Assembly (NCBI RefSeq): GCF_003841505.1
Contig: NZ_REGA01000014.1
Coordinates: 1-64,000, forward strand
Reading direction: 5' to 3'
Length of the DNA stretch: 64,000 nucleotides
Source: Natrarchaeobius chitinivorans
GTDB taxonomy: Archaea; Halobacteriota; Halobacteria; Halobacteriales; Natrialbaceae
Below the pieces are notes generated by a model. It saw nothing but the letters and a program-made list of their open reading frames with translations. It was not told the origin of the DNA and searched no databases. Below are positions 5,189 through 6,120 of the stretch, one piece after another. The stretch's first letter is position 1; each line of letters opens with the position of its first letter. Position numbers and translations under genes: made by a program.

Positions 5189-5283
5189 GATACCGGGTAC
5201 ACTCCCCGAAGTGAAATACGTTGGTCCCGCCGTTCGACCGTGATCCCGGATTTCGCCGGCACTCGTGTCGACGGTTCGAAGCG

Positions 5284-5290
5284 CTTATAC
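5284..5290 (+). promoter_or_regulatory. TATA box for rpl15e
   Basis: CTTATAC, preceded by a purine-rich BRE-like CGAAGCG. With the usual spacing of about 25 nt the transcript would start near 5310-5315. That leaves an unusually long leader of about 105-110 nt before the rpl15e start codon. Confidence 0.6.
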
Positions 5291-5320
5291 CTCAACGCTG
5301 GATAGAACCGACAGACTCGC

Positions 5321-5419
5321 TGGTTCGCGGGCATCAGTGGGCACCTGCACGGCTTTGCCGCAGGTCGGGATGTGATCCCCGCTGGGGATTGAACCAGGAA
5401 ACGCCCGCGGTGATATACG
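5321..5419 (+). ncRNA. structured 5' leader of rpl15e (candidate autoregulatory element)
   Basis: Read from the sequence: a closing helix GCGGGC (5327-5332) with GCCCGC (5403-5408); a bulged hairpin 5343-5365 (ACCTG..CAGGT around CGGC TTT GCCG); and a hairpin ATCCCC GCT GGGGAT (5375-5389). TGGTTC (5321-5326) can also pair with GAACCA (5391-5396), crossing the closing helix, so the two helices form a pseudoknot or are alternative states. The 3' strand of the closing helix directly abuts the Shine-Dalgarno-like GGTGAT (5409-5414), 5 nt before the ATG. The structure is read by eye; its function as a leader switch is inference. Confidence 0.55.
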
Positions 5420-6010
5420 ATGGCAAAAAGCTTCTACTCCCACATCAAGGAGGCATGGAAGGATCCCGACGACGGTAAACTCGGGGAACTACAGTGGCAA
5501 CGAAAGCAAGAGTGGCGCAAACAGGGTGCGATCGAACGGATCGACCGCCCGACGCGACTCGACAAAGCGCGCGAACTCGGCTACAAGGCCAAACAGGGAA
5601 TCATCGTGGCTCGCGTCTCCGTCCGAAAGGGGACGGCTCGCAAGCAGCGACACAAGGCCGGTCGACGCTCGAAACGCCAGGGCGTCAACCGTATCGGCCG
5701 ACGCAAGAACATCCAGCGCATCGGTGAAGAGCGCGTCTCCCGGAAGTACCCCAACCTGCGGGTGCTCAACAGCTACTGGGTCGGTGAAGACGGCTCCCAG
5801 AAGTGGTTCGAAGTGATCCTCGTCGATCCGAACCACCCGGCGATCGAGAACGACGACGATCTAAACTGGATCTGTGACGACTCCCACACGAACCGCGCGT
5901 TCCGCGGTCTGACCAACGCCGGCACGGCCAACCGCGGACTCAACACCCGCGGAAAGGGTGCCGAGAAGGTCCGTCCGTCGAACACCGGCGGTCAGGGCCG
6001 CGCGAAGTAA
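5420..6010 (+). CDS. rpl15e: large-subunit ribosomal protein L15e
   Basis: 196 residues, full length. It starts MAKSFYSHIKEAW and has the strongly basic body of archaeal/eukaryotic L15e (GYKAKQGIIVARV, RRKNIQRIGEERVSRKYPNLRVLNSYW) and the glycine/arginine-rich tail (RGLNTRGKGAEKVRP). It binds 23S rRNA in the 50S subunit. The ATG at 5420 is preceded by GGTGAT at 5409-5414. The gene is monocistronic in appearance: convergent or unrelated genes flank it. A structured leader precedes it and a palindromic repeat element follows the stop by 24 nt. Confidence 0.97.
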   Translation: MAKSFYSHIKEAWKDPDDGKLGELQWQRKQEWRKQGAIERIDRPTRLDKARELGYKAKQGIIVARVSVRKGTARKQRHKAGRRSKRQGVNRIGRRKNIQRIGEERVSRKYPNLRVLNSYWVGEDGSQKWFEVILVDPNHPAIENDDDLNWICDDSHTNRAFRGLTNAGTANRGLNTRGKGAEKVRPSNTGGQGRAK

Positions 6011-6033
6011 GCGCCGCGATTTCTCCACGTTAC

Positions 6034-6120
6034 TCATACGGATTACTGTCCCTGTGTCCCGGCGCACCCGCCAACCGGGTCGTGGGTACGCCGGCAATGA
6101 CGGACAGTATCCCGTATCAG
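6034..6120. repeat. dispersed palindromic element (family 1), downstream of rpl15e
   Basis: Ends are TCATACGGATTACTGTCC and GGACAGTATCCCGTATCA, inverted copies with one mismatch or more. An inner inverted repeat (CCGGCGCACCCG / GGGTACGCCGG) lies between them. This is a full-length member of the family annotated at several other intergenic sites in the window. It lies 24 nt after the rpl15e stop. Confidence 0.8.

Follow-up and report, generated by a model that had tools for sequence, protein, structure and literature searches.

A Covariation-Supported Pseudoknot Predicted in the eL15 Ribosomal Protein Leader of Haloarchaea

Introduction

Some ribosomal protein mRNAs carry leaders that form a pseudoknot at the translation start site, including the rpsO/S15 and alpha operon/S4 leaders of Escherichia coli, in which the knot is presumably held by the ribosomal protein. 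In these leaders, as in the haloarchaeal eL15 leader described here, the loop of a hairpin base-pairs to the ribosome-binding site or to the sequence before it. The haloarchaeal leader was likewise found to have a pseudoknot at its ribosome-binding site that is supported by covariation. The host is archaeal here, and both the protein and the core are different; the likeness would be one of mode of action and not of membership.

Two archaeal studies provide further points of comparison. Archaeal L7Ae autoregulates via a k-turn located in the 5′ UTR of its mRNA, as established by experiment (PMC5539422). This is also a case of an archaeal ribosomal protein acting on its own mRNA leader, a relationship that is only inferred for eL15, but the ligand there is a k-turn, and no pseudoknot is seen in the available text of that report. 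In Halobacterium salinarum, salt-dependent alternative structures have been proposed for the 5′ UTR of rpl15e itself (PMC9786353). The gene and the notion of alternative 5′ UTR structures are shared with the present work, whereas the published model is salt-driven and based on single-sequence prediction, with no covariation analysis seen in the available text.

The family that includes the leader examined here is RF03144, the eL15-Euryarchaeota ribosomal protein leader, which was predicted from covariation in 2020 (Eckert and Weinberg, PMC7247131). In that paper, eL15 is given as the likely ligand, a prediction that follows from rpl15e being the sole gene behind the leader, and resemblance of the leader to an rRNA binding site is graded as unclear. 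The Rfam model comprises 48 positions forming two hairpins, P1 and P2. A pseudoknot is not mentioned in the main text of PMC7247131, and a search of open papers found no earlier description of one.

Leader Set and Counting

A total of 193 haloarchaeal regions before eL15 were parsed, and the 153 distinct leaders among them were counted. Some families are overrepresented in it, since the first 80 loci were chosen as close relatives of the eL15 protein of the window. The motif in the P0 loop was placed by likeness to a fixed consensus, blind to its complement, in order to avoid circularity; anchoring of this kind was used because the MAFFT alignment misplaced the motif in leaders with longer loops. 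Manual placement was used for the loop register of one leader (L069) and for the 5′ strand of P0 in three others (L187, L201, and L202). Seven deep lineages were excluded from the counts for indels, although complementarity between loop and tail is readable in them. Event counts come from parsimony on a single gene tree (FastTree, 135 eL15 genes).

The rpl15e Locus

The window is a 64,000-nt stretch of DNA from Natrarchaeobius chitinivorans, and the features of interest within it are listed in Table 1. Directly upstream of rpl15e is a match to the RF03144 covariance model that spans its full length (1–48), scores above the gathering threshold, and stops 19 nt short of the eL15 start codon; it is the single copy in the genome. 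The leader is a member of RF03144, and the locus itself was already known. It shares core and gene with the family, with a score above the curated threshold, and differs in extent: the model covers only P1 and P2 and ends at 5400, which leaves out P0, the pseudoknot formed by its loop, and the strand adjoining the Shine-Dalgarno sequence.

Table 1. Features of the rpl15e leader and gene in the window.
Feature	Position	Strand	Basis or remark
BRE/TATA promoter element, CGAAGCGCTTATAC	5277–5290	+	First T of TTATA at 5285
Inferred mRNA leader, ~106 nt, start ~G5314	5314–5419	+	TATA spacing
P0, predicted 5′-terminal hairpin (5318–5323 with 5334–5339)	5318–5339	+	Pairing, compensatory changes
P0 loop strand of predicted pseudoknot, GCGGGC (consensus RCGGGC)	5327–5332	+	Covariation
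Alternative partner of 5403–5408, GUGGGC; closing helix around core	5337–5342	+	97.8% paired; mutually exclusive with pseudoknot
P1 hairpin of RF03144 core	5343–5365	+	Rfam structure
Rfam RF03144 match	5344–5400	+	42.8 bits (gathering score 33.7)
P2 of RF03144 core, internal loop GAUGU/GAA, presumed eL15 site	5366–5396	+	Rfam structure; conserved in methanogens
3′ strand of predicted pseudoknot, GCCCGC (consensus GCCCGY)	5403–5408	+	Covariation; directly before Shine-Dalgarno
Shine-Dalgarno, GGUGAU	5409–5414	+	Complementary to 16S rRNA 3′ end, GGATCACCTCC
rpl15e (ribosomal protein eL15)	5420–6010	+	PF00827, E 2.7e-81

An initial annotation, made from the window sequence, had likened the leader to an autogenous control element for a ribosomal protein. 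This reading fits RF03144, a family for which control by eL15 itself is predicted. Of the two hairpins that the annotation placed in the leader, that at 5343–5365 is P1; the pairing at 5375–5389 is also present but amounts to only the inner stem of P2.

The conserved AUGUG of the core reads AUG-UGA at 5370–5375 in the window, so that a stop comes directly after a start codon. This is probably incidental, since AUGUGG occurs in many other leaders.

A TATA-like box was found in 185 of the 193 haloarchaeal leaders searched, and its first T lies 28–30 nt before RACUCG in 177 of those 185, a spacing seen in 12% of shuffled flanks. Applied to the window, this spacing places the transcription start at about G5314, 4 nt before P0, so that P0 would form the very 5′ end of the mRNA. 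Promoter spacing thus supports an rpl15e transcript with a leader of approximately 106 nt, and together with the RF03144 match it agrees with the annotated leader of over 100 nt. Leader predictions of the family are reported to agree with mapped transcription starts (PMC7247131).

The GGTGAT at 5409–5414 is complementary to AUCACC in the 3′ terminus of the 16S rRNA from the same genome. As had been annotated, it is directly abutted by the strand at 5403–5408, with no spacer. GGUG occurs right after the pseudoknot 3′ strand in 116 of the 193 leaders, and approximately 40% are without it.

Beyond rpl15e lies a near-palindrome of ~88 bp (6032–6120; fold z −3.3). It is a dispersed repeat, present in at least 40 places in the genome at 83–90% identity, and is suggestive of a MITE- or REP-like element.

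Covariation of P0 and the Loop Pseudoknot

Haloarchaeal leaders (n = 193) share, with variations, a common order of elements: RACUCGCUGG, a loop with RCGGGC, CCAGCG, GGCACC, P1, P2, GCCCGY, the Shine-Dalgarno sequence, and AUG. CGCUGG and CCAGCG form hairpin P0, whose loop can pair through RCGGGC with GCCCGY. The initial annotation had recognized the resulting helix (5327–5332 with 5403–5408) as a closing helix around the two hairpins. The helix is present as GCGGGC with GCCCGC, and is itself a pseudoknot because its 5′ strand sits in the hairpin loop of P0. P0 and the pseudoknot are also present in L049 and L050, close relatives of Haloferax volcanii.

Across the 153 distinct leaders, pairing in the pseudoknot helix amounts to 97.2%; shuffles give 91.6%, and slid registers do not exceed 45%. 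Double-change cells, in which both sides differ from the commonest pair, number 81 (shuffle mean 27, maximum 43). Both measures exceed those of all 500 shuffles and all slid registers. The pair 5327–5408 is A-U in 67 of the leaders, G-C in 65, and U-A in two. For P0, 96.3% pairing was observed over the same leaders, with 23 double-change cells against a shuffle maximum of 11.

When changes were mapped onto the tree, the alignment of upstream regions that the initial annotation had proposed as a check showed that compensatory double changes arose independently at least 13 times in the pseudoknot, ten of these at 5327–5408, and 11 times in P0. In an unbiased scan of 1176 column pairs for same-branch changes, 5327–5408 ranked first, and all eight of its changes were compensatory. 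Four other column pairs had at least three same-branch changes: two of them belong to P0, and the remaining two involve adjacent columns and were attributed to the alignment. On the strength of this covariation, the predicted pseudoknot can be regarded as established in haloarchaeal eL15 leaders. Together with P0, it constitutes a haloarchaeal extension that is absent from the database model of RF03144.

The annotated leader had also been described as pseudoknot-capable, which it is, although through other strands than those named. The proposed crossing pair, TGGTTC (5321–5326) with GAACCA (5391–5396), is 60.8% paired, no better than in shuffles, and both strands are engaged elsewhere: UGG is part of P0, and the CC at 5394–5395 closes P2 in the Rfam structure. 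Minimum-energy folding was tried as a separate line of evidence and rejected (z = −0.59; 47 of 200 shuffles fold equally well).

Distribution and Comparison with Methanogens

Of 393 genomes in the phylum, 205 gave an RF03144 match; these include haloarchaea and methanogens, with one copy per genome among the matches listed. In eight haloarchaeal genomes the leader is present before eL15 though missed by this strict search. Only one of the haloarchaeal leaders examined has plainly been lost. In that small genome, the region before eL15 is A+T-rich and carries a TATA-like box, TTTTAAATA, ~50 nt before the start codon.

Methanogen leaders have the same core as those of haloarchaea and a different link to the ribosome-binding site. 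For example, Methanosarcinaceae-like leaders possess a closing helix, GUUUCAUU/AxUGAAAC, while in two other methanogen families the core runs directly into GGUG. Two further methanogen leaders have GUUUCG/CGAAAC and GUUUCA/UGAAAC, respectively, around the core, a compensated closing helix of the Methanosarcinaceae-like kind. Such a distribution suggests a constant sensor core with lineage-dependent outputs, and would fit a core that binds protein. As regards likeness to the eL15 site of 23S rRNA, a bulged-G module, a short-motif search found AUGUGG...CUGA in haloarchaeal 23S rRNA and no clear counterpart in the methanogen 23S rRNAs examined; support for rRNA mimicry by the core from this approach is weak.

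Proposed Mechanism

In the haloarchaeal eL15 leader, the core lies between P0 and the ribosome-binding site. The leader is proposed to exert autogenous translational control via the pseudoknot, a reading to which a probability of roughly 0.6 is assigned. By pairing across the core, the pseudoknot links the ribosome-binding site to the predicted 5′ end of the mRNA. When eL15 is in excess of free 23S rRNA, it would bind the core and stabilise the pseudoknot, and the closed fold adjoining GGUGAU would prevent initiation by the small subunit on rpl15e. With eL15 in short supply, the knot would open and rpl15e would be translated. Autogenous control by eL15 is a prediction here, as it is in the available text of PMC7247131. 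Blocking of the Shine-Dalgarno sequence cannot be the mechanism in all leaders, since ~40% are without GGUG right after the knot.

Data from Halobacterium salinarum bear on the level of control. At low salt, rpl15e mRNA is reported to rise more than two-fold and the protein to fall to under a third (PMC9786353). Post-transcriptional control of rpl15e in this species is likely, since mRNA rises while protein falls.

Competing Helix and Alternative Explanations

The 3′ strand of the pseudoknot has a second potential partner. GGGC (5339–5342), part of a conserved GGGCACC, is also complementary to GCCC (5403–5406), and a closing helix of 5337–5342 with 5403–5408 is the minimum-energy fold in the window, where it extends over GGUG, as it does in several other leaders. 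Energies do not rank this helix against the pseudoknot, because the folding program cannot model pseudoknots. A two-state switch could operate by exchange of GCCCGY, just before the Shine-Dalgarno sequence, between these partners. In one state the P0 loop would hold GCCCGY and leave the ribosome-binding site free; in the other, GCCCGY would be held by CAYC(A)GYGGGC (5332–5342) in a helix of ~10 bp that includes GGUG and hides the ribosome-binding site, and eL15 on the core would favour this second state. The low mean unpaired probability of the Shine-Dalgarno sequence (0.08) in the minimum-energy fold and the 97.8–99.2% pairing of the closing helix are in keeping with such an exchange, as is the position of the helix, which occupies the place of the Methanosarcinaceae closing helix. 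Moreover, GGGC is replaced by GAGC only where GCCC is replaced by GCUC, in L069 and L176 (2/2 vs. 0/151; chance ~9e-5). However, double changes occur in only one pair of the closing helix, and with two compensated lineages the support for 5339–5342 with 5403–5406 is weaker than that for the pseudoknot. The closing helix is also broken, and the pseudoknot kept, in L187, L201, and L202, while in Halorubrum-type leaders the loop and the 3′ strand change jointly and GGGC is left as G-U. The CACC/GGUG extension tracks lineages, with no clear covariation, and was rejected as proof of Shine-Dalgarno sequestration on those grounds. Strand exchange with these assigned states is considered rather unlikely. 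Somewhat more credence, if still tentative, is given to the general proposal that the haloarchaeal leader may be a conserved two-state switch, in which two near-identical GGGC strands, one in the P0 loop and one flanking the core, compete for the strand on the Shine-Dalgarno side, with both pairings under selection.

Other explanations dispense with eL15 or with RNA structure. The leader might mainly sense salt or temperature, or serve to recruit SmAP1 or a processing nuclease, given that SmAP1 binding and a processing site are reported for the H. salinarum rpl15e transcript, for which two structures are also predicted at a 56:44 proportion (PMC9786353). Those structures come from single-sequence tools, however, and the main text of that paper names neither Rfam nor a leader. 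The core, moreover, is common to methanogens, with the same gene downstream wherever examined. This suggests that the ligand is the gene product and makes a leader unconnected with eL15 improbable. A DNA-level element, such as a promoter-proximal operator in which pairing is incidental, would account for conserved sequence just downstream of a promoter, but is very hard to reconcile with covariation that spans ~76 nt across hairpins of variable length. It is further disfavoured by the repeated replacement of G-C by G-U within P0 (15 events on the tree at 5319–5338), which points to RNA, as G-U keeps a pair only there.

Significance

Very few archaeal cis-regulatory RNAs are known in detail. 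For the eL15 leader, the published model says nothing of how binding would lead to control, because it stops short of the ribosome-binding site. Autogenous control through the covarying pseudoknot would offer a definite output mechanism, and one that is easily tested in the genetically tractable Haloferax.
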